A DNA stretch of 43,096 nt from Candidatus Zhuqueibacterota bacterium (lineage in GTDB: Bacteria > Zhuqueibacterota > Zhuqueibacteria > Residuimicrobiales > Residuimicrobiaceae), in assembly GCA_963169875.1 (NCBI GenBank), contig CAUJEL010000115.1, forward strand, positions 1 to 43,096, read 5' to 3'. This document shows positions 3,293 to 41,538 of this stretch, in pieces. The notes beneath the pieces are model-generated. The model was not told the origin of the DNA and searched no databases. It saw only the letters and a list, made by a program, of their open reading frames with translations. How positions within the stretch are numbered: position 1 is the first letter of the stretch; the number at the start of each line of letters is the position of its first letter. The translations under genes and the position numbers were made by a program.

Positions 3293-4198
3293 TCAGAAAT
3301 GCGTCGGGACAGGATGGTCCAACGGCTCCCCCTGCAAAAGACCGGGGTGAACCATGTCACTGGACTGATACCAGGTCTTTTTCTCCCCTTGTACCTGTGT
3401 AATCATGATTTTTTCGCTTTCCTGCAAGCGCGCCAGGCTCTGCGCGACATCGCCGGGCCGCCAGGTAAAGAGTCTCTGGATATCGATCGCTGATGCAACG
3501 CCCGCCAATTTGAAATATTGCAGCAAAATAATTTCCCGGGCTCTCTCCTGCGTCATCTTGGCGGATTGCTTCACTTCCTCCTCATAGCGCAGATTGAATT
3601 GCTCCCAAAGAAAAGTGAACGGATCATAAAACTCGGCTATCTTGCAGAGGTACATGCGCATCTGCAGTTCGGCCATGGCGCGGTCGAATTCCGCGCGTTT
3701 TCCGGGGTGCGCATAGCCACTGGACAGTTTCAATTCAGAGGTGATCTGCGGAGAGTGCTCTGTCAACGCGTCCATGATATGCCGCGCCGCCGGCGAAAGC
3801 TGCCCGGCCATGTAATCAGCGATATAACCGTCTTCTCCACGATCCCCTGCGACGAGGCGATAAAAAGCCGGCAAAAACGCCAGGGAAATCATGGACGGCC
3901 GCGCCTTGATGGCTTTGCCGTAATAGAGCGCTCTTTGCGCCGGCAGATCGTCTTTGGCCTGCCAGACCAGGCCGATATAGGGATCAGAGTGGGTATGCTC
4001 CGGATAGGCCGGGTGACGTTCACCGCAGGCCGCATGCCACAAACAGGGCAATTCAGAACGCCGGGCGGTGAAGGCAAAACAATAGCCGACTTTGTTCACA
4101 AACCGCAGCGCGCCAGCCATGTCATGCACCTGCCTGGCTGGCGTACGCCAATAGGTGTGATCCCGGTATGCCTCAATCTCATCCCGCGTGACAGCCAA
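3293..4198 (-). CDS. AlkZ-related winged-helix protein
   Basis: A 301-aa protein resembling the 'AlkZ-related' group of winged-helix proteins, distant relatives of the interstrand-crosslink glycosylases AlkZ/YcaQ. The region around ALRFVNKVGYCFAF (about 30-43), ELPCLWHAACG, the charged stretch with WQAKDDLPAQRALYYGK (about 79-95) and SLAFLPAFYRLV fits that group. Winged-helix-like segments lie at about 130-200 (LTEHSPQITSELKLSSGY followed by FDRAMAELQMRMYL) and near the C-terminus. I cannot identify the AlkZ catalytic glutamine motif, so glycosylase activity is not claimed; it could be only a DNA-binding protein. It starts at TTG 4196-4198 with AGGA about eight bases upstream and is first in the minus-strand run towards the kinase. 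Assignment rests on recall of family sequence patterns. Confidence 0.6.
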   Translation of the reverse strand: MAVTRDEIEAYRDHTYWRTPARQVHDMAGALRFVNKVGYCFAFTARRSELPCLWHAACGERHPAYPEHTHSDPYIGLVWQAKDDLPAQRALYYGKAIKARPSMISLAFLPAFYRLVAGDRGEDGYIADYMAGQLSPAARHIMDALTEHSPQITSELKLSSGYAHPGKRAEFDRAMAELQMRMYLCKIAEFYDPFTFLWEQFNLRYEEEVKQSAKMTQERAREIILLQYFKLAGVASAIDIQRLFTWRPGDVAQSLARLQESEKIMITQVQGEKKTWYQSSDMVHPGLLQGEPLDHPVPTHF

Positions 4199-8885: not shown

Positions 8886-9319
8886 GCGAGAAAATCCTGT
8901 TCCATTACGGTTATTTTTTAATAGACCATCTCTGTGCGAGTTGTTCTCCCTCTCCCGTCCCCCGTGCCCTCCCCGCAAGGTATTGTTGAAAAAACCACTC
9001 GTAAGCTGTATCAGGCCACTTTCGGACTTTTATTATTACCTCTGCACCCTGCGTCTCTTCGCGACAGTGTCAATGCACCACTGCATCACTGCGCCCTGCG
9101 TCTCTTCGCGACAGTGTCAATGCATCACTGCACCCTGCGTCTCTTCGTAAACGCGCCACTGCGGGGAAAAGTTAATATGCGAAAAAGAGCAAGATGTTCT
9201 CCCGCTGTGATGCAGAGGCGCAGAGAAAAACAATCTTTTAAGCGGCCCGTGAAGAATGCATGGATGGTCAAAGCGATTGCTGCAACAGCTTCCACGGGAA
9301 AGGCCGGAGTGAGGGCGCC
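8886..9319. other. Intergenic region with short direct repeats
   Basis: 434 bases separate the two GHL10 genes. The middle holds the direct repeats listed separately; a related fragment with GCAGAGGCGCAGAG occurs near 9212-9226. Short plus-strand frames across this stretch are low-complexity products of the repeats and are not genes. I see no clear promoter or terminator. Confidence 0.5.
9047..9147. repeat. Two and a half direct repeats of a 31-base unit
   Basis: The unit starts CCCTGCGTCTCTTCGCGACA and ends GTGTCAATGCA. Copies lie at 9047-9077 and 9094-9124, with a truncated third copy (first 15 bases) at 9133-9147. Spacing between copy starts is 47 and 39 bases; the spacers are themselves related (CACTGCATCACTG-like). 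Copies are identical over 31 bases, so the array is recent. Irregular spacing and similar spacers exclude a CRISPR array. Confidence 0.85.
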
Positions 9320-12300
9320 TTATTTCACCACCAGCATCTTACGCACCAGTATTTGCCCCTCAAAGGAGAGCCGGTAAAAATAAGCGCCTGATCCCGCCTG
9401 CCGAGCGTCAAAGAGGACATGATGCATCCCGGCTTCCCTGCGCTCATCCAGCAGATGCGCCACCTCGCGGCCGAGCACATCAAATACCGTCAGCGTGACA
9501 TGTCCTGCCTTTGGCAGCACAAAATCGATCTGCGTCACCGGATTGAACGGATTGGGATAATTTTGCAGCAGCGCAAATTGCCCGGGCATGTGTCCAGGTT
9601 TGTCCTCCACGCCAACGGGATAGCTGCTCTTTTTGACCACCTGAAGATTGTCGAAAAAGAGAACGCCGCTGCTGGCGGCACCCGTTGGATGCGTCAGGTG
9701 AAAACTGTCGATATTAAGTTTCGATCCATTGAGCACGCGGTCTCCAAGCCAGGCGCCCACGGAAGCCGGATCGCTCAATTTCCATTCCACGAGTTTCCAG
9801 CCGATCCAGTCGATCGTCACCCACTGCGACACCTCATGAAAAGCCGCCTGATCGCGGGTCGAATCATTCCGGCAGAAGCGAAACTGATTGCCGCTGCCGT
9901 CTCCATAAATATAGCACTGCAGCGTGTAGGTGGTGTCGAAAAGCACCTGTGCGGGCGCTGTCGCCGGATCGAGATATTCACGCAGCAAAAACTCGGTTTT
10001 TGTTTCATCCCACTCATAGCGCAAGCTGGCCGAACTTCGCATCAACGGCAGCGAATTGGGAAGATAAACGGTTTTGTTCACCTCGAAAACGGTATTGGGC
10101 GCGTAGATGCCCACGGTCGAACCGCTGAAGTTGGGCGCTTTCCAGCTGGTGACCGCGTTGAAATTCTCGATGCTTTTCACGGATTCACTGCGCTGAAGCC
10201 CTGTCTTGAAAGAAAGCGCTACCGGTTCAGACAGGACGTTGTCCAGGGTATCGCTGACGGTCGCTGCGAGATCGAGCGTGTAATCGCTGTTAATCTCGAA
10301 CGGCGTCTTTGGTTGAATGCTGAGCACGCCTTGTCCCAGTATTTTGGAGATGGCGCGATTCACCGGCACCAGTTCACCATTTTTGCGCAATTTTATGCTG
10401 CTGTCCGGCACCGAAGCTGGCGCGATTGGTTCGTCGAAGGTGATGTTGATGACGCCTTCCACAGCGAGCAAATCGGTGCTTCCATCGACAGGAAATGTCG
10501 CAACCACTCTCGGGCCATACACGTCCTGTGCGTCGCTGTGAAAATGAACGACAAAAGGATCGCCGCCCGTGCCATCTCCATCGCCGTCCAGGGCTTTGCC
10601 ATTGACATCCGTGGCCGCAGCCGTTATCTGCACGGTATAAGCTGTGGCAAAAGCGAGCTTCTGCGCAAAAATAACCTTGAGATGCTTGTTATCATCGGAC
10701 CAGATAGATTGCTTGACCGGCACATTGGGTTCGATGACAAGGGCTGGAATGACCGTGGCTGGATCCATGCTTTTGGAGAAGGTGATTTCGGCCTGGATAT
10801 CAACCCGCACGGTATCCCCTTCCTGCGGAAAACCGTTCACCACCCGCGGCGGCAGCGATGCGACGAAATCGGTGGTCAGCGACGGGGAGGGATTGGACTC
10901 GTTCCAGAAGCGGTCCACCTGCGTGGCAAAATAATAAAAGGCGCCTTCATGATTCTGCAGTCCGCTGAAACGGTCCACATAGGTGCAGGTTGAATCTGTG
11001 AAGGCAATATCGAGAATGGTGTCATTGCCGACATCTGCGGCATCATCCTCGGAGCGATAAAGCACGAAGCGGAAAGGCCCGGTTTGTCCCGGTGCCGGCG
11101 CAACCGTGATCTGATAAGTGACCGAATCGATTTTATTCATTGTCAGAGCCGGTGACTCGGGCGTCGCATCCTGTAAAAACTTGGCGGCGCGGATTTTTGT
11201 TTTATTTTTGAAAAAGGTTTCCCCGGCGATCGTAAAGTACTTGTTCTCTTCCCAGGAGCCGTAGCTGAAAAACTGAAATCCATCCACCCAGGGCAACATG
11301 CGGCAGTAATCCACAATACTGGCGTGATTGGCAAATATTTTATCTTCGCTCAAAATATAGGAACCAGGCCCTGCGCTGAAAAGGCGGCCCGCAGCAATGC
11401 CCTTTTGTATATAGGCGCCCCAGTTGGTGCTGCCCGGTCCGGCCAGCATGCTGTAAAAACCGGCACCCGTGGTCCAGTGATAGTGCATGGGCGTCAACTG
11501 ATCGATATAGCCCTCATTGAACCACAAGGCTGCATCCTGGTACACGGATCCGTACCCCTGCCAATCGCTCCAGTTGTACTTGCCCAAAGCAGCGGCGGAA
11601 AGCCGTACCCACGGCTTGGCCGCCTGAATCGAATCATGCAGGGTGCGTACGAACTGGGTCACCGAATCCCGCCAAAAATCCGCCCAGGACGCATATCCCG
11701 CGGGCACACCCGCACTGTAGGGATGTTCGACATCATAGAGGTAGCGCGATGCCGTGCTGCTGTTGAGAATGGCCACTTGTTCATCAGAAATGTGTCCATC
11801 CAGCTGCCGTTGCTGCCCTTCCTTGTTCAATGATGCAGCGCCGCTCTCTTCATTCCAGCGCACATAATCCAGATGAAAACCATCGATGTCGTAACGCTGC
11901 ACAATATCCATGGCCACGCGCACGGTATAGGCGCGCACAGCGGCCAATCCAGGTGAAAGCGCACGGGAGGAGGTCATGGGCTGGTCACTGGCGTTGCGGC
12001 ATACCCACTCCGGATGATCACCGGCCGGCGAACCTGGAATGGTCTCGGAACAATGGAAGGTGTTGAACCAGGCGTGCAGTTCCATGCCGCGCTTATGGGC
12101 TTCTTCAATGGCATAAGCCAGCGGATCAAAGCCGGGATTCTGATAGCCTACATAAGGTCCCCAGGGTTCATAATTGGAGTGGTAATATGCTGTCCCACCC
12201 TGTCGCACCTGCCACAACACGGCATTCATGTTGGCGGCCTTGTGGTTATCGAGTATCTCGCGGATATTGGCTTTGCTCTGGGCAACGCTCCATCCCGCAT

Positions 12301-12403
12301 TGCTATGCTCCCAGGTGATAACCCAGGTGGCGCGAAATTCCTGGTTATTAGCTGCGACTGCAAGCAGTGGCAGTAAACAGAAAAGCAGGATCCATTTTTT
12401 CAT
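9320..12403 (-). CDS. Secreted GHL10-family protein with Ig-like domains and T9SS tag
   Basis: A 1027-aa secreted protein starting at the ATG at 12401-12403 (GAGGTG five bases upstream; signal peptide MKKWILLFCLLPLLAVAA). An earlier in-frame codon adds 16 residues before the signal peptide and is unlikely. The GHL10 domain covers about 20-420: EFRATWVITWEHS, NAVLWQVRQGGTAYY, EEAHKRGMELHAWFNTF and YDIDGFHLDYVRW (D172, D174, D179 candidates). Two Big_5-type Ig-like domains follow (about 545-755; PPRVVNGFPQEGDTVRV and GPRVVATFPVDGSTDLL), then a beta-rich module (about 765-930) resembling carbohydrate-binding jelly rolls, then a sorting domain starting QNYPNPFNPVTQIDF. It differs from its GHL10 neighbour in accessory domains and active-site surroundings, so the two may act on different bonds of one polymer. 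Likely first in a run of GHL10, GHL10 and esterase genes. Confidence 0.88.
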   Translation of the reverse strand: MKKWILLFCLLPLLAVAANNQEFRATWVITWEHSNAGWSVAQSKANIREILDNHKAANMNAVLWQVRQGGTAYYHSNYEPWGPYVGYQNPGFDPLAYAIEEAHKRGMELHAWFNTFHCSETIPGSPAGDHPEWVCRNASDQPMTSSRALSPGLAAVRAYTVRVAMDIVQRYDIDGFHLDYVRWNEESGAASLNKEGQQRQLDGHISDEQVAILNSSTASRYLYDVEHPYSAGVPAGYASWADFWRDSVTQFVRTLHDSIQAAKPWVRLSAAALGKYNWSDWQGYGSVYQDAALWFNEGYIDQLTPMHYHWTTGAGFYSMLAGPGSTNWGAYIQKGIAAGRLFSAGPGSYILSEDKIFANHASIVDYCRMLPWVDGFQFFSYGSWEENKYFTIAGETFFKNKTKIRAAKFLQDATPESPALTMNKIDSVTYQITVAPAPGQTGPFRFVLYRSEDDAADVGNDTILDIAFTDSTCTYVDRFSGLQNHEGAFYYFATQVDRFWNESNPSPSLTTDFVASLPPRVVNGFPQEGDTVRVDIQAEITFSKSMDPATVIPALVIEPNVPVKQSIWSDDNKHLKVIFAQKLAFATAYTVQITAAATDVNGKALDGDGDGTGGDPFVVHFHSDAQDVYGPRVVATFPVDGSTDLLAVEGVINITFDEPIAPASVPDSSIKLRKNGELVPVNRAISKILGQGVLSIQPKTPFEINSDYTLDLAATVSDTLDNVLSEPVALSFKTGLQRSESVKSIENFNAVTSWKAPNFSGSTVGIYAPNTVFEVNKTVYLPNSLPLMRSSASLRYEWDETKTEFLLREYLDPATAPAQVLFDTTYTLQCYIYGDGSGNQFRFCRNDSTRDQAAFHEVSQWVTIDWIGWKLVEWKLSDPASVGAWLGDRVLNGSKLNIDSFHLTHPTGAASSGVLFFDNLQVVKKSSYPVGVEDKPGHMPGQFALLQNYPNPFNPVTQIDFVLPKAGHVTLTVFDVLGREVAHLLDERREAGMHHVLFDARQAGSGAYFYRLSFEGQILVRKMLVVK

Positions 12404-12727
12404 CAGGCACCTCATTGAATAATAAACTTTGGCAGAAAAGGTATTGGACACCTCATTCGGGTTGGAGCTGACAAATCACGTCAAAACCAGGATAGCGACA
12501 CCCGTAAATTTTGGATTAAACACGTATCACCCAGGCTGATTTTTGTACCGGACGAGAAGGCGATTGCACAAGCGGATATAGTTTGGCAAGATTTGAACGA
12601 CCACGGCCATACAAAAGTTATCGTTTTTCTACTGAACGACAGCCATATCTATTAATACGCGCTGCAGGTCGACCGGACTGGTCGACCTACAGTTCCGAAA
12701 GCGTTGCAGCTCCCCGGTGCATATCCG
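12404..12727. other. Intergenic region with hairpin and an unexplained open frame
   Basis: 324 bases between the end of the receptor-partner operon and the start of the GHL10 gene. A plus-strand frame is open from 12422 to the TAA at 12653-12655 (77 codons) and looks protein-like in its second half (RLIFVPDEKAIAQADIVW), but it has no usable start codon or ribosome site and I do not recognise it; it may be a gene remnant or chance. The hairpin at 12662-12692 is listed separately. The promoter for the GHL10/esterase run should be here but was not identified. Confidence 0.4.
12662..12692 (-). terminator. Hairpin downstream of the receptor-partner operon
   Basis: CTGCAGGTCGACC, a five-base loop, then GGTCGACCTACAG: a 13-bp stem with one mismatch, centred on the palindromic GGTCGACC. 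It lies 36 bases past the stop of the last gene in the minus-strand receptor run, a good place for a terminator, but no T-tract follows on the minus strand. It may instead be a dispersed palindromic repeat that stabilises the transcript end. Confidence 0.45.
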
Positions 12728-14918: not shown

Positions 14919-17900
14919 TTAAAAGTTGATTTTCAAGCCAAAGGTGATGTCGCGTGGATTCAAATAGAACAAGGAATCGATATTGGGATTATCAATATAG
15001 GATTTTTTATCTTTCCTGGCTTGATTGCGCTTGCTGATCTCCGGATCATTATTGGGATTCAGCTCCAGGGGATCGTACTTGACGCCTGCCGGTCGCAATT
15101 CGCCGATCTTGTCGTCGCCTTTTTCATCACCGGTCTCCCAATCAAAATTCAACGATGCCAGGTAATCGAGTCGATCATAGGTATCGGCGTAGGAGGTGAC
15201 GCTGAAATACTTGGTGTTCAGCACATTGCTCCAGTCCACATAAAACTGCAACTGCATGCGGTCGACATTGACCGATTTGGTGATGCGCAGGTCGATGTTG
15301 TACCAATCCTTGTAACGGCAGTTGTCGATCACACCCGGGATGTTATTGGGATTGTAGGTATAAAATCCGCCATCCTGCCAATCGGCAAGAATATTGAGAT
15401 TCAGACCGGCCAGAGGCTTGAATCCTGCAACAGCCGGCCCAAACGTATTCGGTGTATGAAAATCAACGTTGGCACGGGCATAGGGCAGTGGATGCGGCTT
15501 TTCCTGGTACAAATTATTGCGCAGATATTCCCGCTGTTTGTTGCTGTTCTCGTAGTACATGAGCAGGCCAAAATAGCCGCTGGTGCGGACATCATAGGTA
15601 TAGTTGATAAAACCCGTCAGCCACTCGCCCATCTGTTTGTTCAGGGTGACTTCAAAACCGCGGATATCGGCATAGAAATTATTCTCAGCCACCGAATAGT
15701 CCACCATGCCATCGAGGCTGCGGTATTGCACCGATCCCGGCTGGTTGGTGACGTCCTTGTAATAAGCCGCCACATTCAGGAGCAGCATATTAAAGAGGTT
15801 TTGCGAATAGCCCAATTCATAAGCCACCGTCTTTTCCAATTCAAGATCGGGATTGCCGATGTACTTGATCTGGCCGTTTGCTTCGCGGCTGAGGCGGAAT
15901 CGTGTGGAGGACGAGGCCTCTGAACGGAAATGGCCGTAGTTGAAATAGAGCTTGCTGTTGGCGGTGATGGGATGCGACACGCCCAATCGCGGGCTCCAAT
16001 ATAGCTTGGCTTCGGACTGGACTTTTTCGGCGGATTGTTCGATGTTCGAACCATAGACAGGGCCGAGCTGCTTGTCGAAGGTCCTCAGCTGATAGACATC
16101 CGAGTTGGGATCGCTGTAATCCATGCGCAACCCCACATTGGCGATGAACCCTTCAAATTCGATCTTGTCCTGCAGGTAGGCGCCGATGCGATAGGGAAAT
16201 ACATTGTACTTCATGCTGCGGCGCCAGGTGCCCATGGTGGGATGCTCGGAGGACGCCTTGATATCATAATCATTATAAACCACCTGCACGCCCGTCTTGA
16301 TCTGATGGCGGAAATTGACCTGGCTGGTCAAGTCAAAGCGGAAATTGGTGGTGCTATTGACGCTCCTGTCGCGGCTGAAATTCTGCCAGTCGCTCATGCG
16401 TTCGCCGGTGATGCCGCCACCACCAGAACCGGAGTACCCATAGGGCAGCTCGTCGACAAAGTAGCCCGGAACGGGTTGATAAATCCTGCTGGTATCCCGC
16501 CTGGTCATCTGATAGGTGTTGTAGCGGTTGTAGTTATACTGCAGCGCAACTTCATAAAACGTATGCGTGTTCAGCATATGGGTGAATTGAATACCGTACA
16601 ATTGGCGATAGACATCCGCCGGACTGCTCCAGGCGGGTGTATACAACATGGTGCGGCTGTCGCCGGCGCCCAAATAGTCCGCGATGGTGCTCTGGCTGCG
16701 AACCACTGAACCGTCCGGAATGTCATAGCCGATATTCACGGCCGAAGAGAGATCGCCGTACAATCCGGTCACGATCAGCTTCATGTTTTTCTTGATGTCG
16801 GTGGTGACTTTTAACTGGGTGTAATTTTCGCGATAAGCATCGGTGGACAACGGATAGATGAACATGTCCTGTTCGCGAAAATGGGAGATAAAAAAGCGTG
16901 TGCTGCCGTACTTGGAAAGGAACGGCACCGGGCCGCCAAATCCGGCATCAACGACATAATCCGGTTTCTTGATATCGCCCTGGCGGCGGTGCTGCCATTC
17001 GAACACCTTCTTGGCGCCTTCAGCCGTCAGGTCATTATTGGGATTGTCATCCTGAAGGGTTTTGTCGGCGATGACCTGCCATCCCTCAAAGGCGAGATAT
17101 TGGGTCTGCGTATATTCATCCCAACTGCCATTTTTGGTGCCGACGTAACAAACGGCCGGATCCATAAAGGGCCGGTTGAAATAGGACATGGGGTCATACA
17201 GCGAGGTGCCGAAATGCTTGGAGGCGGGAGGACTGTAACGCAACGTCGTGGTAAAATGATAGCGGCTGGCATCGCCTTCTTTGGTTACCACATTGACCAG
17301 ACCGGAACGGACGTTGCCGTATTCAGCGTTGAAACCGCCGGTTTGCACCTTGACTTCCTGCACCGAACTCATGGAGATGGCGGCATAGGGAATATTCGAA
17401 CGTTCATCGTTCAGCGACAACCCGTCCAGCATCATCACCGTCTGGTTGGCGCCGCCGCCGCGCACCAGAATGCCGGCGCTGCTGGCCTGGATACCCGCCT
17501 GCAAACTGAGCACTTCCTTGACCGACTGCACCGGCATGCTCTCCATGGTCTTGACTTCGATGTTCATCTGGCTGCTGGAGATATCGCGCGTCACCACCGG
17601 CCGCTGCGCCACGACAACCACATTTTCACCTTCCAGCGTCTGGCTCACCATCCGGGCATTCATCTCCGTGGTGATATCGATGGTCACGCGAACCTGGCGC
17701 ACCTTGAATTCCTTGTACCCCAGGATGGAAAATTTCAAATCGTAGGTGCCCGGCGGCACATTAAGGATGGTATAACGGCCATCAATGGTGCTGACAGCGC
17801 CGTAAGGAGTCCCTTCGAGCAGGATATTCACACCCGGAATGGGACTGCCCGATTCGGCATCGGTCACCAAACCGGCTATTTTGCCCGTCGTTCCAGCGAG

Positions 17901-17957
17901 CGCGATCACAGCCAGACTGAGGACGATGACAAGTGCTGACGTTACGATTCTCGACAT
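14919..17957 (-). CDS. SusC-like TonB-dependent outer-membrane receptor 1
   Basis: A 1012-aa outer-membrane transporter. After a signal peptide (1-21) comes a carboxypeptidase-regulatory-like beta domain (about 23-100; GKIAGLVTDAESGSPIPGVN, GRYTILNVPPGTYDL), then the plug domain (about 115-230; VRGGGANQTVMMLDGLSLND, GGFNAEYGNVRSGLVNVVTKEG), then a long beta-barrel ending in RDITFGLKINF, whose terminal phenylalanine is the usual barrel-assembly signal. Such receptors import large ligands, often oligosaccharides, using TonB energy. The ligand is unknown. It lies 63 bases after partner 2 and 19 bases before partner 1. AGGAGA stands before the ATG. Closely similar to receptor 2, so the two receptor-partner pairs look like a tandem duplication. 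The SusC label reflects architecture, not a recognised substrate. Confidence 0.93.
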   Translation of the reverse strand: MSRIVTSALVIVLSLAVIALAGTTGKIAGLVTDAESGSPIPGVNILLEGTPYGAVSTIDGRYTILNVPPGTYDLKFSILGYKEFKVRQVRVTIDITTEMNARMVSQTLEGENVVVVAQRPVVTRDISSSQMNIEVKTMESMPVQSVKEVLSLQAGIQASSAGILVRGGGANQTVMMLDGLSLNDERSNIPYAAISMSSVQEVKVQTGGFNAEYGNVRSGLVNVVTKEGDASRYHFTTTLRYSPPASKHFGTSLYDPMSYFNRPFMDPAVCYVGTKNGSWDEYTQTQYLAFEGWQVIADKTLQDDNPNNDLTAEGAKKVFEWQHRRQGDIKKPDYVVDAGFGGPVPFLSKYGSTRFFISHFREQDMFIYPLSTDAYRENYTQLKVTTDIKKNMKLIVTGLYGDLSSAVNIGYDIPDGSVVRSQSTIADYLGAGDSRTMLYTPAWSSPADVYRQLYGIQFTHMLNTHTFYEVALQYNYNRYNTYQMTRRDTSRIYQPVPGYFVDELPYGYSGSGGGGITGERMSDWQNFSRDRSVNSTTNFRFDLTSQVNFRHQIKTGVQVVYNDYDIKASSEHPTMGTWRRSMKYNVFPYRIGAYLQDKIEFEGFIANVGLRMDYSDPNSDVYQLRTFDKQLGPVYGSNIEQSAEKVQSEAKLYWSPRLGVSHPITANSKLYFNYGHFRSEASSSTRFRLSREANGQIKYIGNPDLELEKTVAYELGYSQNLFNMLLLNVAAYYKDVTNQPGSVQYRSLDGMVDYSVAENNFYADIRGFEVTLNKQMGEWLTGFINYTYDVRTSGYFGLLMYYENSNKQREYLRNNLYQEKPHPLPYARANVDFHTPNTFGPAVAGFKPLAGLNLNILADWQDGGFYTYNPNNIPGVIDNCRYKDWYNIDLRITKSVNVDRMQLQFYVDWSNVLNTKYFSVTSYADTYDRLDYLASLNFDWETGDEKGDDKIGELRPAGVKYDPLELNPNNDPEISKRNQARKDKKSYIDNPNIDSLFYLNPRDITFGLKINF

Positions 17958-30447: not shown

Positions 30448-33400
30448 TTAAAAATTGTAATTCAATGTGATCCCGAAAAAGACCTGACGCGGATTCAGGA
30501 ACGTCCAAAACGTCTGCGCCGGCATGTTGATGTAGGCCTTGTCTTTGATAATCTTGTCCATTTTTGACTGCGGCACCTGCGCCCACTGACCATCCACATA
30601 CTGCATGTAGCGCTTGCTCGCCCCTTCATAATAAATGGCGCGTGCGATGGGCGCCGCCACAGTGGTCAAGTCCTTGGTCCATTCGATGGGCTGAAACGCC
30701 ACGTCCTCTTTGCGATAGTCGCCCGGCCGGTCGTCACCCGGGATGTAATCTTCGTATCCCAGATTTTTCACGACATCCTCAGGAAGGTGCAGCGACTTAT
30801 AATAGTCCTGTTCGTCGTAAATATCCTCATAGCCATAGCCGGAATAGTATTTGAAATTAAGGGCATTGTACACATCCACATACGCCTTGAGATCAAAGGG
30901 CCCCATGTTGAAACTCTTGGAGAATTTTAAATCGATATTATAATAGTCTTTCCACTGGACATTGTAGAGAATGCCGGTGATGTCCTGGGGATTCCAGGTG
31001 AACCAGTTGCCGGCCGTCCAGCGCGCGATGGTATTGAGGTTCCATCCACCGAGGATGTTATGCCCCAATACTTTCGGGCCAAAGTCTTCCGGCGAGCGCA
31101 GATCCAGATAGGCTTTGAAACGGGGACGCGGCCTGGGTTTGGTCTGCACCGGATTTTCCGATTCGTATTCACGCTGTTCCTGGGGATTTTCGTACTGATA
31201 CGCATAGCCGAAATGGCCCGAGGTCTCGACGCGATACTCGTAGTTGATGTCACCGACGATCCATCTGCCAAAGGTCTTGGAGAGATCCGCCTCAAAACCG
31301 CGTATGTCCGCGTAGGAGAGGTTGGTCATCTTGGAATAATTGACCTGGGCATCCTTGCTCTGGTAGGTGACGCTGTACGGCTGGTCGGTGATATCCTTGT
31401 AATAAGCGGACAGGGTGAAGAGATAGTTGCTGAAAAGTGCCTGGGCGTAACCCAACTCGTAGGAGACCGTGCGTTCCAGGGGAATGGTGGGATCGCCGAT
31501 GTAATCAATCTGATTGGTATGGGCGCGCTGCACGCGGTACAAACGTTCCGAGGTCGGCAGCTGACGGTAATGACCATAGTTGAAATAGAGTTTGGAGTTC
31601 GCGGTGATCGGATGCGACACCGAGAGCCGCGGACTCACGGTCAATTGATTCTTCATCGTTTTGGTCTTGTACTGCTCGTCCATGGTCTCCCGGTAGCGCA
31701 TGGTGTAGAAGGTACGGTCATAGGGAGACACATCATACCAGTTGCTGTTGGGCGCGGTATAGTCGAAAAGGACGCCCACCGTGGAGATGAATCCTTCAAA
31801 CTCCAGCTTGTCCTGGACGTAGAAATTGGCGCGTATCGGGCTCTGATCGATCCGGGTCCAGGTGTTGGATTCGCGCAGAGAATTGCTAAAGTATCCGAAA
31901 GACATGTCGAAATCATCATACACGATCTCAACGCCGGTTTTGACCTGGTTGCGGTGATCGACCTGGCTGACCAGATCAAATTTGGCGCTGTAGCTCTGAA
32001 TGAAGCTGAAGTCGCGCTGCGCACTCACCGGACCGCCCATGATAAGGGCACCGTAAGCGGTGGTGGTATAGTCTTCGGAAAAACCAACCGGGCTCTCATC
32101 GCGGTAGAAACCGGGCAATACTTCATACTGGGTCGTCAAATCGCGATAGTTTTGCGGCATGGTGAAATACTTGCTGCGCGTATACTTGAGCTGGGTTTCA
32201 TAATAGGTTTTGGGACTCAGCATGTGCGTCAGCTTGCCGGACATGGTCGAATAAAAACGCGACGTGGGGCAGTAATAGATGTCCGTATAGATTCTGGAGG
32301 CGATGGCAATGGTCTTGCCGCTGGTGACCGAAGCAATGCCCTCGGGGCTGGAGATGATGCTGGTGCCCTGGGCGTTGGAGGTAACCGCGCGCTGTTCGCC
32401 GTAAAGTCCGTTGATGGACAATTTCATCGAGGGCGTGATGTCCGCGGCCAGCTTGAGCATGCTGCTCTGATCCACCAGATCGGGACGCGAAATCTGGATC
32501 ATGTACATATCACGCTCCTTGCGCGACGAGAGGAAGAAGCGCAGATTGCCCAGCTTTTTGCCGATGATGGGAACCGGGCCGCCAAAACCGACATCGTAGA
32601 GGTAGTCGGGATCCTTGATGTCGCCCTGTTTGCGATGCTCCCACTGGAAAAGCCGCTGACAGCCGTCGGGCGAGAGATCATTTCTGGGATCGCTATCACC
32701 CAGATATTGCTGCGATACTGCGTTCCAGCCTTTGAAGGCGGGATACTCATCCTGGGTGTAGACATCCCAGGCGCCGTTATCGGTGCCGGTCCAGCACACA
32801 GCGTCATCCAGATAGGGACGCAGCCAATAGGAGTTGGGATCAAAGGGGCCGTCGCCAAAGTATTTTTGCGAGGCGGGTTTATAGCGGAAGGTGAAGCTGG
32901 CGCTGTAGCTGTCTGCGTCGCCTTCGCGCGTCACCACATTGACCAGACCGGAACGGACATTGTTGTACTCGGCGCCGAATCCGCCCGCCTGCACGGAAAT
33001 CTGCTGCACCGCGCTCAGGGGAATTTTGGCGATGGGCGCATTGTCGCGCTCGTCGCGCATGACCACGCCGTCGACCATGAAGAGCGCCTGATTGGCGCTG
33101 CTGCCGCGGATGGAGAGGTCCGAGCCGACACCGGCCTGCAAACCGACGGCCTCACCGACGGTGGCGACCGGCAGGTTCTCAATCTGTTCGGAGGTCACTT
33201 GCATCTGGCTGCCGGCGACATCCTTCTGCACCACCGGCCGCTCCGCGCGAACCGTGATTTCATCGCCCACCAGGGTCTGTTCCTTTAATTTAAAATCCTG
33301 TGTGGTCGTCAGGTCGATGTTGACGCGGACGTCGGTCAAGGTCATGCTGGTGTAGCCGATGATCGACGCCTGCAATGAATAGGCTCCTGGCGGCACATTC

Positions 33401-33594
33401 AAAATGGTGTACTCGCCGTCCATGTTGGTCACAGCGCCCATGGCCGTGCCCTTGACCAGGACATTGGCACCGGGCAGGGCCGCGCCCGTGTTGACATCTC
33501 TGACAACACCGCTGATTTTGCCCGTGGTTCCGGCAAAAACCCATGTGATCGAGCATAAAACGAGAATGCCCAATAGGATGTGTTTCAACTTCAT
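30448..33594 (-). CDS. SusC-like TonB-dependent outer-membrane receptor 3
   Basis: A 1048-aa receptor with a signal peptide (1-21), carboxypeptidase-regulatory-like domain (GKISGVVRDVNTGAALPGAN, GEYTILNVPPGAYSL), plug (SIRGSSANQALFMVDGVVMRD; GGFGAEYNNVRSGLVNVVTREG) and a barrel ending LNPRQVFFGITLNYNF. It is the most divergent of the three receptors and carries an extra stretch near the end (about 985-1025, with KRYMQYVDGQWAQVPQSK). AAGGAG precedes the ATG by about ten bases. It heads a five-gene operon: receptor, partner, PorV-like, TIG lipoprotein, propeller T9SS protein. Upstream are a promoter-like element and a small palindrome (separate entries). The ligand is unknown. Confidence 0.93.
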   Translation of the reverse strand: MKLKHILLGILVLCSITWVFAGTTGKISGVVRDVNTGAALPGANVLVKGTAMGAVTNMDGEYTILNVPPGAYSLQASIIGYTSMTLTDVRVNIDLTTTQDFKLKEQTLVGDEITVRAERPVVQKDVAGSQMQVTSEQIENLPVATVGEAVGLQAGVGSDLSIRGSSANQALFMVDGVVMRDERDNAPIAKIPLSAVQQISVQAGGFGAEYNNVRSGLVNVVTREGDADSYSASFTFRYKPASQKYFGDGPFDPNSYWLRPYLDDAVCWTGTDNGAWDVYTQDEYPAFKGWNAVSQQYLGDSDPRNDLSPDGCQRLFQWEHRKQGDIKDPDYLYDVGFGGPVPIIGKKLGNLRFFLSSRKERDMYMIQISRPDLVDQSSMLKLAADITPSMKLSINGLYGEQRAVTSNAQGTSIISSPEGIASVTSGKTIAIASRIYTDIYYCPTSRFYSTMSGKLTHMLSPKTYYETQLKYTRSKYFTMPQNYRDLTTQYEVLPGFYRDESPVGFSEDYTTTAYGALIMGGPVSAQRDFSFIQSYSAKFDLVSQVDHRNQVKTGVEIVYDDFDMSFGYFSNSLRESNTWTRIDQSPIRANFYVQDKLEFEGFISTVGVLFDYTAPNSNWYDVSPYDRTFYTMRYRETMDEQYKTKTMKNQLTVSPRLSVSHPITANSKLYFNYGHYRQLPTSERLYRVQRAHTNQIDYIGDPTIPLERTVSYELGYAQALFSNYLFTLSAYYKDITDQPYSVTYQSKDAQVNYSKMTNLSYADIRGFEADLSKTFGRWIVGDINYEYRVETSGHFGYAYQYENPQEQREYESENPVQTKPRPRPRFKAYLDLRSPEDFGPKVLGHNILGGWNLNTIARWTAGNWFTWNPQDITGILYNVQWKDYYNIDLKFSKSFNMGPFDLKAYVDVYNALNFKYYSGYGYEDIYDEQDYYKSLHLPEDVVKNLGYEDYIPGDDRPGDYRKEDVAFQPIEWTKDLTTVAAPIARAIYYEGASKRYMQYVDGQWAQVPQSKMDKIIKDKAYINMPAQTFWTFLNPRQVFFGITLNYNF

Positions 33595-33834: not shown

Positions 33835-35163
33835 TTACAGCATATCACTTGCCAATTCCGCCAGAGCGGATCGCTCTCCTTTTTCCAGAGTGACATGGGC
33901 GTAGATGGCTTGTCCCTGCATGCGATTGATGAGATAGTTGAAGCCGGTGGATCGCATATCCAGATAAGGGGTGTCGATCTGCGAGGGATCGCCGGTGAAA
34001 ACGACTTTGGTGCCTTCGCCCGCACGCGTGATGATGGTCTTGATTTCGTGTGGCGTCAAATTCTGCGCTTCGTCCACGATGAAATAGATGTGATCCAGAC
34101 TGCGGCCGCGGATATAAGCCAGGGGCGCAATTTCGAGTTTGCCGCTCTCCAGCATGTCATTGATGCGCACGGTGCGCTCGTCGTTCTCCTTGAACTGATT
34201 GCGGATCACGCCGAGATTGTCAAAGAGCGGCTGCATATAGGGATCGAGTTTGGATTCGATATCGCCGGGCAGGTAACCGAGATCGCGATTGGACAGCGCC
34301 ACCACCGGTCGGGCGAGAAAAATTTGCCGGTACTCCTTGCGCATCTCCAGGGCACCCGCCAGCGCCAGCAGCGTCTTGCCGGTGCCGGCTTTGCCGCTCA
34401 ATGTGACCAGCTGCACATCCGGCTGCGTCAACGCATGGATGGCGAAGGACTGCTCCGCATTGCGCGGCGTAATGCCGTAGGCCTGCAGTTTTTCCAGACG
34501 TTCGAGCATTTGCGAGTGGGGATTATAATAGGCCAGAACCGATTTGCTGGCATTGCGCAGAATGAAATATTCGTTGGCTACAGGCGCTTCGATTTCCGCT
34601 TCCGCCGGCGAAATCTCGTGCGGCGCCGCAAACAAGCGGTTGATCACTTCGGGATTGATATCTTCACACAAGCGCTTACCGCGGTATAGCTTGTCGATGT
34701 CTTTGATTTTGTCGGTATAATAATCTTGAGAGGCGAGGCCGAGGGCACGGGCTTTGAGGCGCAGATTCACATCCTTGCTGACCAGGACGATTTGCTGACG
34801 GGGATGTTTTTTCTGCAGAGACAGGGCGGCGCTGAGAATGCGATGATCCGATTTGTGCTCGAAAAAGGCATCGGCGACTTCTGGTTCATCGCTGAAAACC
34901 GTGAGGATGGATATATTGCCACGACCCTCCCCCAAACGGACGCCATCCCGCACCAGCTGCTCACCAGAAAACGTATCCAATAAGCGAATAAATTCCCGCG
35001 CATGATAATTGATCAAATCCTGACCACGCTTGAACGCATCGATTTCTTCGATGACCGTGATCGGAATGACAATATCGTTTTCTTGGAAATGAAAAATGCA
35101 GGTAGAGTCGTGCAGGATGACGTTTGTATCAAGGACAAAGGTCTTCTTCAAATCCTCCTCCAA
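33835..35163 (-). CDS. PhoH-family ATPase with N-terminal PIN domain (YlaK/PhoH2 type)
   Basis: A 442-aa cytoplasmic protein of the PhoH2 group. The PIN domain (about 8-155) has acidic residues in VLDTNVILHD (D12), VIEEID (E39/E40), SDHRIL (D106) and SKDVNLRLK (D131), fitting a metal-dependent ribonuclease site. The PhoH ATPase domain (about 220-440) has Walker A GKAGTGKT (257-264) and Walker B FIVDEAQN (361-368), then VVFTGDPSQID. PhoH2 proteins act as RNA unwinding and cleaving enzymes; members elsewhere are linked to a toxin-antitoxin arrangement, but no small antitoxin gene is seen upstream here. It is transcribed divergently from the EndoQ-UvrD gene across a 724-base gap, and stands as a single gene. 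Confidence 0.93.
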   Translation of the reverse strand: MEEDLKKTFVLDTNVILHDSTCIFHFQENDIVIPITVIEEIDAFKRGQDLINYHAREFIRLLDTFSGEQLVRDGVRLGEGRGNISILTVFSDEPEVADAFFEHKSDHRILSAALSLQKKHPRQQIVLVSKDVNLRLKARALGLASQDYYTDKIKDIDKLYRGKRLCEDINPEVINRLFAAPHEISPAEAEIEAPVANEYFILRNASKSVLAYYNPHSQMLERLEKLQAYGITPRNAEQSFAIHALTQPDVQLVTLSGKAGTGKTLLALAGALEMRKEYRQIFLARPVVALSNRDLGYLPGDIESKLDPYMQPLFDNLGVIRNQFKENDERTVRINDMLESGKLEIAPLAYIRGRSLDHIYFIVDEAQNLTPHEIKTIITRAGEGTKVVFTGDPSQIDTPYLDMRSTGFNYLINRMQGQAIYAHVTLEKGERSALAELASDML

Positions 35164-35887
35164 GAAACAGAAAAATTCGTTCTAAAAATAAGGTTTTCAT
35201 CCGGAAAATGCAAGCATTTTTCGCACCTAAGTGTAGTACAATCAGTTATTTTTATCATCGAATTAACGGAACCGCTTCCAATGTTTTTTCCAGCAACTCA
35301 CACCCCGAGTCCCCCTCCTCCCGACCTCTCTTTTACAAATTATTGAACAGTTTATTTTTTCATTGAACATATGAACCGTTTTGATTGAGGCAGATTCAAC
35401 ATTGCTTTTTCCTTGTTTTTTATGCCCTTTTTGCTTGAACTTTCCTGTGGCGCCCGCTCATTTGTCAGTAATTTAATTAAAAGAGAGACTCTGTGCCGCC
35501 ACAGGGCGTCGAAAATCGCGCTAGTTCGTATTTACCAATTTTCTGCCGCCAGACTGGCGCAAACAGAAAAAAAGCGCGCGCAGTTATTTTTGCTATAAAA
35601 ATTACTGTCAATCTTTTCGTTTGCCAAATTTGTGCGCAATATAAAAGAATGCGCCGCAATACCTGAAATGGCCGGCACCATCATGGGGCAGCCTTGGGAA
35701 ATCCATTGGCAATTCCCAGAGATATTTGTATATTACCACAGCAAACTTAACCACGCCCTGAAGCGCCTTGCAGATTAATAAAAGTTCAGCTGCTTTTTGT
35801 CATAATCCTGACCCGTTTTCAACAGCTTCACAGCAGGGCATTGCTCTAATTCATGCCACACCCGCTCATCTCAAAAGATAACCAGTG
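35164..35887. other. Divergent intergenic region
   Basis: A 724-base AT-rich spacer between the divergent PhoH and EndoQ-UvrD genes. It must hold both promoters. I found no open frame with gene-like features (short frames around 35413-35598 are not supported), no tRNA-like fold and no strong -35/-10 pair. CTGTG-CCGC-CACAG near 35491-35503 is a small hairpin of unknown meaning. Confidence 0.4.
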
Positions 35888-38800
35888 ATGAAATACATCG
35901 CCGATCTCCATATCCATTCCCATTTCTCCCGCGCCACCAGCCGCCAGCTGGTACCACTGCAGCTCGCCGCCTGGGCGCAACGCAAAGGCGTCGACGTCGT
36001 CGCCACAGGCGATCTCACCCACCCGCAATGGCTCGCCGAACTCTCGGAAACCCTGCAGCCGGCCGAGGAGGCGCCCGGTCTGTTCCGCTTGAAATACGAT
36101 CTGGCCCGGCAGGCCGACTCCCTCGTGCCGGCTGCCTGCCAAAACAGCGTTTATTTCATCCTCTCCGGTGAGATCAGCAGCATCTATAAAAAAGACGGCG
36201 CCGTTCGCAAAATTCATAACGTCGTCTTCATGCCCTCCCTGGAGGCGGCCGCCAAATTTCAGGCGCGCCTCGAACGCATCGGCAACATCCGCTCCGACGG
36301 CCGCCCCATTCTCGGACTCGATGCGCATGACCTCCTGGAAATTGTCCTCAACACCGATGCGAACGCACACCTCATCCCCGCGCACATCTGGACCCCATGG
36401 TTCTCCCTGTTGGGCTCCCAATCCGGATTTGACAGCATCGAGGCCTGCTTCGGCGATCTCACCCGACATATCTTCGCTGTTGAAACCGGCCTCTCCTCCA
36501 ACCCGCCCATGAACTGGCGGCTCTCCATGCTCGACCGCTACCATCTCGTCTCCAACTCGGACGCCCATTCGCCGGAAAACCTGGCGCGCGAGGCCAACAT
36601 TTTTGATACACGTCGCTCCTACTTTGATCTCTTTGCGGCGCTGCAAAACAGAAACTCGAGCGCTTTTCTCGGCACCATCGAGTTTTTCCCCGAAGAGGGC
36701 AAATACCACATGGACGGCCATCGCAAATGCAATGCCATGCTGCGGCCGTCACAAACCATGGAACGAAATGGCCTCTGTCCGGTCTGCGGCAAACCGGTCA
36801 CCCTGGGCGTCAGTTACCGCGTCGAGGAACTGGCCGACCGGCCGGAGTGCTTCAAACTCGCGGACGCCAAACCCTACCACAGTCTGGTGCCGCTACCTGA
36901 AATCCTCGCTGAACTTTACGATATGGGCGTTAAATCCAAACGTGTGCAGGGCCTCTATCAAAAACTGCTGCACGAGGGCGGCTCCGAACTCTATCTTCTC
37001 ATGAATGCGTCCATCTCCGACCTGGAGCTCCTCGCCGGGCCCATGTTCGGCGAAGCCATTCGCCGCATGCGCGCCAGTCAGATCAGCGCCCAACCCGGCT
37101 ACGATGGCGAGTATGGCGTCATCCGCCTGTTTCAAGCCGAAGAGCGCGCACAGTGGCTGCAGCAGTCGACGCTCTTTCAGATCACCGCCCCCGCTGCAAC
37201 CAAGTCCGACAATGTCCCGCAAAAAGCCGCGGCTAAGCGCGAAAAGAAAAATCGCGTTGAAGAACCGGCCCCACGCCCCTATGGTCTCAACGCCGAACAA
37301 GCGGCCGCTGTAGCCCATCAGGGCGCGCCGCTGATCATTCAGGCCGGTCCCGGCACGGGTAAAACCCGCACCCTCACGGCACGGATCGCCCATTTGCTAA
37401 AAACGGGGATCATTCAACCGCACCAAACCCTGGCGATCACCTTCACCAACAAGGCAGCGCAGGAAATGCACGAACGGCTCACCCAGCTCCTCGGCGCGGA
37501 AAGCGCCGCCGGCATGCACATCCAGACCTTCCACGCGTTCGGCTGCGGCCTTCTGCGCGAGATCGGCACCTTCGAGGGCCGGGAAGCGGACTTTAGCATC
37601 ATCGATCCCGAGAGCGATGAGGTCTTCATTCGTGAGTTGGAACGACGCAGCGGTGAAAAATTCACCGCTTGGGAACTGCGGCACATCGAGGCTTTAAAGA
37701 CACGATTGTGCATATCCAAGCCGCAAGTGATCGAGAATTTATGGGAACCTTTTCCGGCCTATTTCCCGGGGGTGTTCCGCAGTTATGATGAAATCCTGGC
37801 CGAGTGGAATGCCGTCGATTTCAATGACTTGATCCTGCTGCCGGTGCAGCTGCTGCGCCATGACCCGGATCTGCGCCGCCGCCTGCAGCAGCGCTTTCAG
37901 GCTATTTTTGTGGATGAGTTTCAGGATATCGATGCCGCACAGTATGAGCTTTTCCGCATCTTTGCGCTGGCGGCCAGGGAAGTCTGCGCCATCGGAGATC
38001 CGGATCAGGCGATTTATGGATTCCGCGGCGCCAGCAGCGAATTTTTCCACCAGTTTCAGACCGACTTCCCCGGCGCGCGCCTCATTCGCTTGCAGCGCAA
38101 TTACCGCTCCCCGCAAAACATTTTGTCCGCTGCGCATCAAGTCCTTCAGCACGGAGCAGCCGCCGGGCACGCCCCCCTCATCGCCGAGCGCCGCGCCGAA
38201 GTCAAGGTCAATATCCGTGCCGCTTCCAGCGACCGGACGGAGGCGGCTTTCATCATCGAAAAAATGGACGAACTCGTCGGCGGAGTCAACCACCTCTCCA
38301 TGGATAGCGGTCAAACCGACGCCACCGCGCACGCGGCCTATTCCTTTGCGGACATGGCGATCCTGGTGCGCACGCGACGGCTGCTGCCGGCCGTCGAACA
38401 AGCCCTGGCGCGCGCTGGCATCCCGTTCCGATCTCTGCATCACCGCCAGCTTCTGCAGGACTCTGCGTTGTGCGGCGCCGTGGCGGCACTGCATCTCTGG
38501 CTGCAGCACAAACCCATCGCCCCCCATGTGCGGACGTTATTGCAACAGTATGAAATAGAAAATGAGGAACTTTTTAATACCCTGTGCCGTCTTATCAAAA
38601 AAGAACGATCCTGCGCGAAGGACGACCCGGAAAAACATTATGGCGCCTTGCCGGAGACAGAGCAAAAGTTGTGCAAACTTTGTGATGCTTTGCCCTCCTG
38701 GCCCCAGGATCTTGCACTGGCCACCATTTTGCAGCGCATCTTTTCGTTTCTGCCCGAACGGCAGCCGGACGTTGAGCCACTGGAGCGGCGGCGCCTGCTC

Positions 38801-39208
38801 GCCAAAGCCGCAGAATTCTCCGGTTCTGCCGGAGAATTCCTTGATCTGCTCGCTTTACAGCGGCAGATCGATGAGTATGATCCGGCCGCGGAGTATGTGC
38901 ATATTCTCACCCTGCATGCCGCCAAGGGACTCGAATTTCCAGTGGTCTTTATCGTCGGGTGCGAAGAAGGCATGTTGCCTTTTTCCCTGGCCGATGACAT
39001 GGAAGAAGAGCGCCGCCTCTTCTATGTGGGCATGACGCGAGCAGGGCAGCAGCTCTATCTCAGCCACGCCAAAACGCGGTTGCTGCACGGCCAGCTCAAA
39101 ATGCAGACGCCATCGCGCTATCTGGCGGAAATTTCTGAACAGCTGATCCGCAAACAGACGAGCCAGTATAAAAAATCCAAAAGAAACGATCAACTCAAAT
39201 TATTTTAA
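35888..39208 (+). CDS. Endonuclease Q-like PHP nuclease fused to UvrD-family helicase
   Basis: An 1106-aa fusion. Residues about 1-415 match the EndoQ/TIGR00375 family, which nicks DNA 5' of deaminated bases in archaea and some bacteria: PHP motifs DLHIHSHFS (6-14), GDLTH (41-45), DAHD (145-148), AHIWTPW (165-171) and SNSDAHSP (222-229), then GKYH (271-274) and a zinc site formed by C281 and CPVCG (297-301). After a charged linker (about 435-462) comes an SF1A helicase: Walker A AGPGTGKT (486-493), DEFQD (676-680), QAIYGFRGA (707-715), LQRNYRS (735-741), TLHAAKGLEF (1008-1017) and YVGMTRA (1046-1052). The protein ends QLKLF, like a beta-clamp-binding motif. Both halves appear intact, so nicking, unwinding and clamp tethering could be coupled in repair. 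Start: ATG 35888; an adjacent GTG at 35885 is possible. The threonine aldolase gene follows after 107 bases. Confidence 0.9.
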   Translation: MKYIADLHIHSHFSRATSRQLVPLQLAAWAQRKGVDVVATGDLTHPQWLAELSETLQPAEEAPGLFRLKYDLARQADSLVPAACQNSVYFILSGEISSIYKKDGAVRKIHNVVFMPSLEAAAKFQARLERIGNIRSDGRPILGLDAHDLLEIVLNTDANAHLIPAHIWTPWFSLLGSQSGFDSIEACFGDLTRHIFAVETGLSSNPPMNWRLSMLDRYHLVSNSDAHSPENLAREANIFDTRRSYFDLFAALQNRNSSAFLGTIEFFPEEGKYHMDGHRKCNAMLRPSQTMERNGLCPVCGKPVTLGVSYRVEELADRPECFKLADAKPYHSLVPLPEILAELYDMGVKSKRVQGLYQKLLHEGGSELYLLMNASISDLELLAGPMFGEAIRRMRASQISAQPGYDGEYGVIRLFQAEERAQWLQQSTLFQITAPAATKSDNVPQKAAAKREKKNRVEEPAPRPYGLNAEQAAAVAHQGAPLIIQAGPGTGKTRTLTARIAHLLKTGIIQPHQTLAITFTNKAAQEMHERLTQLLGAESAAGMHIQTFHAFGCGLLREIGTFEGREADFSIIDPESDEVFIRELERRSGEKFTAWELRHIEALKTRLCISKPQVIENLWEPFPAYFPGVFRSYDEILAEWNAVDFNDLILLPVQLLRHDPDLRRRLQQRFQAIFVDEFQDIDAAQYELFRIFALAAREVCAIGDPDQAIYGFRGASSEFFHQFQTDFPGARLIRLQRNYRSPQNILSAAHQVLQHGAAAGHAPLIAERRAEVKVNIRAASSDRTEAAFIIEKMDELVGGVNHLSMDSGQTDATAHAAYSFADMAILVRTRRLLPAVEQALARAGIPFRSLHHRQLLQDSALCGAVAALHLWLQHKPIAPHVRTLLQQYEIENEELFNTLCRLIKKERSCAKDDPEKHYGALPETEQKLCKLCDALPSWPQDLALATILQRIFSFLPERQPDVEPLERRRLLAKAAEFSGSAGEFLDLLALQRQIDEYDPAAEYVHILTLHAAKGLEFPVVFIVGCEEGMLPFSLADDMEEERRLFYVGMTRAGQQLYLSHAKTRLLHGQLKMQTPSRYLAEISEQLIRKQTSQYKKSKRNDQLKLF

Positions 39209-40653: not shown

Positions 40654-41538
40654 ATGTACCCAGAAACCCAAATAATGGCCAAAAAGAAAAAGAAAAAACC
40701 CTCCGAAACGAGGACCAAGGAGTCCATCGAAAAATATCTCGAAGAGATAGGTGGATTCTCGCCGCTTCCCCCGGAAGAGGAAATTGCCCTGGCACGCCGG
40801 ATTCGTAAGAGCGACGAAGAAGCTTTAGACAAGCTCGTAAAAGCCAATTTGCGCTTTGTGATCAGCGTCGCCAAAGAATACCAGGGTCAGGGCTTGCCTC
40901 TGCAGGATTTGATCAGTGAAGGCAACCTGGGTTTGATCAAAGCCGCACAGCGGTTTGATGAAACCCGTGGCTTCAAGTTCATCTCCTATGCTGTGTGGTG
41001 GATCCGGCAGTCAATTTTACAGGCACTGGCGGAACAATCCCGTGTTGTCCGTCTGCCGCTTAACCGGGTTGGCGCCATCAATAAAGTTGGCCGCGCTCTC
41101 GAAGCGCTCGAGAAAGAGTATGGCCGCGAACCCAGCATGGAGGAAATTGCCGACCGCATGGAAATGACTTCCTTTGAGGTCGCCGATGTTCTCAAAACGT
41201 CAGCTCGTCACCTCTCTCTGGATGAACCCTTTAAAGAGGATGAAGGCAACAGCCTGCTGGATGTCCTGGAAAGCGATCGTTATGAGCCCCCAGACGGCAC
41301 ACTGATGCGTTCATCGTTACGGGAAGAAATAGAGAAGGTTCTCTCCACGCTCAAACCGCGCGAAGCGGAAATAGTGAAACTCTATTTTGGCCTGGATGGA
41401 GACCGTCCTCTGACCCTGGAAGAGATCGGCGAGTACTTTGCCCTGACGCGCGAACGCGTCCGGCAGATCAAGGAAAAAGCGCTGCGCCGGCTGCGGCACC
41501 GCTCGCGGCTCGAACCGCTGCGCAAGTATCTTGGATAA
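40654..41538 (+). CDS. rpoD: Primary-type sigma-70 factor (RpoD/SigA), short form
   Basis: A 294-aa sigma factor (287 aa if the ATG at 40675 is used). It has region 1.2 ([11 protein letters not shown]), region 2 with the core-binding and -10-melting helices ([32 protein letters not shown]), region 3 ([15 protein letters not shown]) and region 4 with the -35-reading helix-turn-helix ([20 protein letters not shown]). Region 1.1 and the long non-conserved insert of proteobacterial RpoD are missing, as in Bacteroidetes-type primary sigma factors. The N-terminus is a lysine-rich tail ([11 protein letters not shown]). Neither start codon has a Shine-Dalgarno sequence, unlike most genes here. An RpoS-like secondary group 2 factor cannot be fully excluded, but region 2 and 4 residues are of primary type. 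A consensus promoter lies upstream and a strong terminator follows 2 bases after the stop. Confidence 0.9.

Follow-up and report, generated by a model that had tools for sequence, protein, structure and literature searches.

A single gene in a 43,096-nucleotide stretch of DNA from a Candidatus Zhuqueibacterota bacterium (contig CAUJEL010000115.1, hereafter the window) carries an endonuclease Q (EndoQ) domain and an SF1A helicase on one polypeptide chain, an architecture that was confirmed at the level of sequence comparison and structure modelling. As the catalytic, base-pocket and helicase motifs are all conserved, the sequence predicts two working modules. We consider it probable that the protein is a clamp-tethered incision-and-unwinding enzyme for deaminated bases, which would act in parallel to UDG-initiated base excision repair. 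The fusion is a widespread bacterial family and is not peculiar to the genome of the window.

One open reading frame encodes both modules

The gene consists of one open frame that yields 1106 residues when counted from the ATG at position 35888 and remains open to the stop at 39208; a GTG at 35885 represents an alternative start in the same frame. Its domains and motifs are listed in Table 1. A preliminary description of the DNA had read an EndoQ-plus-UvrD architecture from the letters alone. This reading was borne out by the sequence comparisons, by the conserved catalytic and pocket residues and by a model of high confidence, and the motifs on which it was based are all present in the translation, i.e., DLHIHSH, E95, KIH (H110), PAH (H166), SNSDAHSP (D225, H227), GKYH (residues 271-274), CPVC (C297, C300), YHSLVPLPEIL and AGPGTGKT (K492). 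An AlphaFold2 model generated with 56 aligned homologues showed a mean pLDDT of 86.8, the longest disordered stretch being the linker at residues 429-463. With this disordered linker and an overall pTM of 0.60, the model leaves the placement of the EndoQ module relative to the helicase module undefined. A chance open reading frame or an assembly join was ruled out by collinear fusions in dozens of independent genomes.

Table 1 Features of the EndoQ-helicase fusion gene and the evidence for each (positions are those of the window).
Feature	Positions	Strand	Evidence
EndoQ-helicase fusion, whole gene	35888..39208	+	Open reading frame; full-length collinear homologues in many phyla
EndoQ domain (PHP, Zn ribbon and C-terminal part), residues 1-415	35888..37132	+	PfuEndoQ E ~1e-47, TIGR00375 2e-47, conserved residues, 5zb8 TM 0.89
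EndoQ zinc site H278, C281, C297, C300	36719..36787	+	Conserved in 77/79, 79/79, 79/79 and 79/79 homologues
Putative internal sliding-clamp motif QSTLF, Q426-F430	37163..37177	+	Of 79 homologues, 59 keep the Q and 75 the F; standalone relatives end here with QLSLF
Linker, residues 431-464, flexible, basic, poorly conserved	37178..37279	+	pLDDT <50 at 429-463; length varies among homologues
SF1A helicase core (UvrD/PcrA/Rep-type), residues 465-1090	37280..39157	+	PF00580, PF13361; PcrA 1e-81; UvrD 2is1 TM 0.82
Helicase motif I (Walker A) AGPGTGKT, residues 486-493, K492	37343..37366	+	Invariant in the 56-sequence alignment except T490
Helicase motif II (Walker B) DEFQD, residues 676-680	37913..37927	+	D676, E677, Q679 and D680 invariant
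C-terminal sliding-clamp-type motif QLKLF, Q1102-F1106, final five residues	39191..39205	+	Q[LMI]xLF in 72/78 distinct homologues

The EndoQ domain retains metal ligands and base pocket

Endonuclease Q (PfuEndoQ, TkoEndoQ and B. pumilus EndoQ; TIGR00375 / COG1379) has the PHP fold, the metal ligands, the zinc ribbon, the base-discriminating pocket and a C-terminal clamp-type motif in common with the N-terminal part of the fusion. However, the characterised proteins are standalone and comprise ~400 amino acids, whereas the fusion carries a helicase, an HCCC zinc site and a terminal clamp motif located after the helicase. Residues 5-415 matched PfuEndoQ (5zb8/7k30) with an E-value of ~1e-47, and no other solved family matched there. 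The TIGR00375 profile matched residues 102-412 with an E-value of 2e-47 and a score of 162.4 bits, which does not reach the NCBIfam curated cut-off of 326.6 bits. In samples of 82, 196, 147 and 190 bacterial genomes, no match reached this cut-off, and of the three control genomes with a match one likewise remained below it, indicating that the cut-off is strict for one subfamily. When the predicted EndoQ module was superimposed on 5zb8 by Foldseek, a TM score of 0.89 by target length and an rmsd of 2.6 Å over ~420 columns were obtained, at a sequence identity of the N-terminal domain to PfuEndoQ of only about 30%. Two checks proposed in the preliminary description, a search of the N-terminus against the EndoQ profile and structures and a fold prediction, pointed to EndoQ, with the profile match staying below the curated cut-off.

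In PfuEndoQ, the catalytic zinc is held by E76, H84 and H139, whose replacement by alanine abolishes activity, and a pocket of H139, G169 and S171 excludes T and A (PMC8307549). Residues E76, H84, H139, G169 and S171 align, in this order, to E95, H110, H166, G201 and S203 of the fusion, which are invariant columns in the alignment of 56 sequences. Among 79 homologues, E95, H110 and H166 as well as D225 and H227 were found in every protein (79/79), and the pocket positions G201, S203 and H166 were conserved in at least 97%. The zinc ribbon is of the HCCC type (H278-C281-C297-C300), in comparison to CCCC in PfuEndoQ, the first Cys being replaced by His. Zinc-binding cysteines had been claimed for this region; the site is indeed present and includes C281, C297 and C300, but its fourth ligand is His278, so that the ligands are not four cysteines. 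Six fused homologues (L022, L025, L026, L048, L060 and L064), which are mostly labelled alphaproteobacterial, carry Gln in place of His8 of the PHP HxH motif, possibly reflecting a change in metal binding.

The nuclease-helicase might have kept the EndoQ fold and yet target another lesion or nucleic acid. Such an altered specificity would fit with the low identity to PfuEndoQ, with the HCCC ribbon and with the long branch between the fused clade and the standalone EndoQ of Clostridia type. The pocket residues that separate U/Hx from T/A are conserved, however, and we regard a change in target as very unlikely. The function in repair of deaminated DNA proposed in the preliminary description is the most likely one.

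A complete SF1A helicase without the Tudor-like tail

A complete SF1A helicase had been claimed from about residue 465 onward, and this assignment held. PF00580 (UvrD-helicase) and PF13361 (UvrD_C) match residues 467-1062, conservation covers each of the helicase motifs I, Ia, II, III, IV, V and VI, and comparison with PcrA gave an E-value of 1e-81. The helicase model superimposed on DNA-bound UvrD (2is1) with a TM score of 0.82 in Foldseek. The fusion thus shares all helicase motifs and the UvrD fold with UvrD/PcrA/Rep, but differs from these proteins in its divergent 2B region, in the lack of a Tudor-like domain and in scores below the PcrA/UvrD equivalog cut-offs (for the PcrA equivalog profile, 408 bits vs a cut-off of 911). 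The Tudor-like C-terminal tail of the PcrA/UvrD paralogues in related genomes, which is the contact site for RNA polymerase, is missing from the C-terminus of the fusion, and a clamp-type motif is found there instead. In a tree of the helicase part, all 79 fused helicases were separate from 15 PcrA paralogues.

The 2B subdomain is autoinhibitory in Rep and UvrD. This region is nearly gone in the fused homologues L068 and L013, where it spans 16 and 37 residues, respectively, vs a median of 126. A GIG motif of the helix-hairpin-helix type, located in the 2B region, was rejected as a feature of the protein, since it occurs in 7 of the 79 homologues and is absent from the protein of the window.

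Clamp-type motifs follow both modules

Two clamp-binding-type motifs that had not been listed before lie at residues 426-430 and 1102-1106. The pattern Q[LMI]xLF was found within the last 40 residues of 72 of the 78 distinct fused homologues, the remaining six carrying near variants of it. By chance, about 0.1-0.24 such tails would be expected, with shuffled tails averaging 0.24 hits, and 2065 comparable windows taken from the bodies of the same fused homologues gave 3 hits. Among 15 PcrA/UvrD paralogues encoded by the genome of the window and by related genomes, the tail motif is absent, and all 15 have the Tudor-like tail. A C-terminal Q-L-x-L-F is typical of bacterial sliding-clamp clients (PMC4549789). 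The internal motif follows directly after the EndoQ domain and is of a less strict QxxLF-type, and in the window's class the chain of some standalone relatives stops at exactly this position.

For archaeal EndoQ, experiments established that a C-terminal PIP box binds PCNA and that PCNA stimulates the enzyme, and the authors of this work already pointed out clamp-type motifs in bacterial EndoQ homologues (PMC4858679). Their occurrence in both archaeal and bacterial EndoQ marks a clamp motif as an old EndoQ trait, and what is special here is the copy after the helicase. Judging from its motifs, the fusion is probably tethered to the replication (beta) clamp. Each module ends in one QxxLF-type motif, and the two motifs would keep the protein attached to the beta clamp, which would position the enzyme at newly replicated DNA or at sites of repair synthesis.

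Distribution and history of the fusion

A pattern scan using one genome per species returned 223 relatives, 80 of which were kept. Among these 80, collinear fusions covering nearly the full query were found in KSB1/Calditrichota-like bacteria, Desulfobacterota, Lachnospiraceae, Bacteroidales, Alphaproteobacteria, Opitutae, Anaerolineae and Gastranaerophilales. Of 82 genomes from the phylum of the window, 69 contained an EndoQ-family match, 50 of them with frames of at least 900 amino acids. The class of Desulfoluna (Desulfobacterota) showed an EndoQ match in 137 of 147 sampled genomes, and 112 of 135 scorable frames reached at least 900 amino acids, i.e., are long enough for the fusion. Fused and standalone EndoQ are both present in the class of Merdimonas (Clostridia), and an EndoQ match was detected in only 5 of 190 genomes of the class of Elioraea (Alphaproteobacteria). 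Desulfoluna spongiiphila and Elioraea tepidiphila are holders of a homologue that are available in culture.

In a tree of the EndoQ domain, whose deep nodes are weakly supported, the fused forms are parted from Clostridia-type standalone EndoQ by a long branch, and two standalone proteins from the window's phylum (L112 and L113) nest inside the fused forms. Decayed helicase remnants lie directly 3' of at least two intact standalone EndoQ frames in genomes of the Desulfoluna class (L159, about 2426-3150; L162, about 2350-2547). These sequences probably derive from a single ancient fusion, after which the helicase was lost several times; given the weak support of the deep nodes, the single event is likely but not certain. 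In all cases of breakage seen, EndoQ was the part retained, so that selection probably acts on EndoQ as the core, with the helicase in an assisting role. In lineages that kept EndoQ after losing the helicase, the latter would be an accessory that is dispensable and not strictly required. Bacillus-type EndoQ functions without a helicase, and together with the losses this argues that coupling of both activities is not obligatory.

Genomic and cellular setting

The gene is solitary, with no neighbour conserved beyond close relatives, and operon context was therefore ruled out as a functional clue. As the fusion is kept across phyla without a conserved neighbourhood, it is the helicase, and no neighbouring gene, that accompanies EndoQ. 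The divergent neighbour encodes a PIN-PhoH ATPase (33835-35163, minus strand). Downstream follow a threonine-aldolase-like gene and a sigma-70 family factor (40654-41538, plus strand), a pair kept only in close relatives. Elsewhere in the window, a 301-residue protein (3293-4198, minus strand) matches the Pfam family 'AlkZ related' (PF24741, 1.7e-27) and may be related to a family of DNA glycosylases. The minus-strand regions 6516-12451, 14919-17957 and 30448-33594 hold two GHL10 glycosidase-like proteins, one of them with a weak match to a secretion-sorting tail, and two TonB-receptor-like proteins with CarboxypepD_reg domains.

The fusion was unmatched in the phages and plasmids searched by protein, and none was confirmed in viral contigs; on these grounds a mobile or phage origin was ruled out. 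A defence function would consist in an attack on foreign DNA containing uracil or modified bases, as in PBS1-like phages, similar to other UvrD-helicase defence systems. An antiviral role has been suggested for bacillar EndoQ (PMC8307549), and PADLOC models of GajB match the helicase part of the fusion. These hits are, however, generic to UvrD helicases and restricted to the helicase part, and a solitary gene that is present in nearly all genomes of whole classes, outside of a defence island, follows a housekeeping pattern. Together with its absence from the phage, plasmid and viral collections, this solitary occurrence speaks against a defence or mobile role, and we give a function in defence very little credence. 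Gabija in particular was rejected, as the match to it is only a generic UvrD match and no Gabija partner (GajA) was found among the scanned neighbours.

A UDG-superfamily match was detected in the window's own genome and in 30 of 30 relatives, 29 of them above the cut-off, as well as in 9 of 10 fusion holders from other groups. The fusion as a substitute for a missing UDG was ruled out by these matches. The preliminary description had spoken of a one-polypeptide pathway distinct from UDG, which was overstated, both in view of the UDG-superfamily matches and since a polymerase, flap removal and a ligase would still be needed. For EndoV, the other deaminated-base endonuclease, neither the genome of the window nor any of the six members sampled from its family gave a match. 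The presence of UDG provides no evidence of a need for the fusion. With UDG present and EndoV unmatched, the fusion would supplement base excision repair and might take care of hypoxanthine and xanthine.

A proposed incision-and-unwinding mechanism

EndoQ cuts so that a 3'-OH and a 5'-phosphate result and the lesion stays on the strand downstream of the nick, and 'removal by helicase activity' after this nick is one of two models drawn by Ishino's group (PMC4357722). The fusion would provide a physical partner for that proposed step. We infer that the fusion nicks DNA and that its helicase is coupled to the nick. As transferred from characterised EndoQ, the EndoQ domain would flip a uracil, a hypoxanthine or an AP site out of the helix and cut the backbone 5' of it. 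The linked 3'-5' helicase would then load at the nick on the intact strand and, assuming UvrD polarity, travel 3' to 5' along it, peeling the downstream lesion strand from its 5' end. This would leave a flap to trim and a gap for a polymerase, and repair would be completed by the polymerase, a flap or single-strand nuclease and a ligase.

The archaeal EndoQ-PCNA pathway has the 5' incision, the clamp recruitment and a proposed helicase step in common with this scheme (PMC4858679, PMC4357722); its helicase is hypothetical and separate, whereas in the fusion it is covalently joined. Likewise, UvrD-dependent mismatch repair and nucleotide excision repair proceed from a nick to peeling of the damaged strand by UvrD, but employ MutH or UvrC and UvrD as separate proteins, whereas the fusion combines nuclease and helicase in one chain.

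Alternatively, the motor could serve the search for lesions and not the removal of the strand after the nick. A clamp-bound helicase would first expose single strands, e.g., near forks, which EndoQ would inspect and nick at lesions. PfuEndoQ efficiently cuts U and Hx in single-stranded DNA (PMC11354406), and the two putative clamp motifs suggest a placement linked to replication. Nicks in single-stranded DNA ahead of synthesis would, on the other hand, break the fork, and EndoQ by itself acts on duplex DNA, so that a search motor is unneeded. We consider such scanning unlikely and favour unwinding after incision.

Discussion

The literature already covers EndoQ as well as its bacterial members with their clamp-type motifs, and the fused sequences surely sit in databases under generic helicase names. 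No description of a fusion between EndoQ and a UvrD-type helicase was found in the open-access papers searched. In its full extent, our reading is that of an undescribed, widespread bacterial machine that would be held on the clamp by two motifs, recognise deaminated bases, nick 5' of them and remove the strand with its own helicase. This machine would join mismatch repair and nucleotide excision repair as a third pathway of the nick-and-unwind type, parallel to UDG. We put this forward tentatively, as plausible but somewhat short of probable.

In the literature, EndoQ is viewed as an archaeal enzyme with few bacterial cases, and the events after its nick are regarded as unresolved. A fused helicase and clamp motifs across several bacterial phyla would offer a direct and testable answer for the step that follows the nick, accessible in mesophiles such as Desulfobacterota and gut Lachnospiraceae. 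The distribution also shows that EndoQ-type repair comes close to being a core gene function in whole classes of bacteria.
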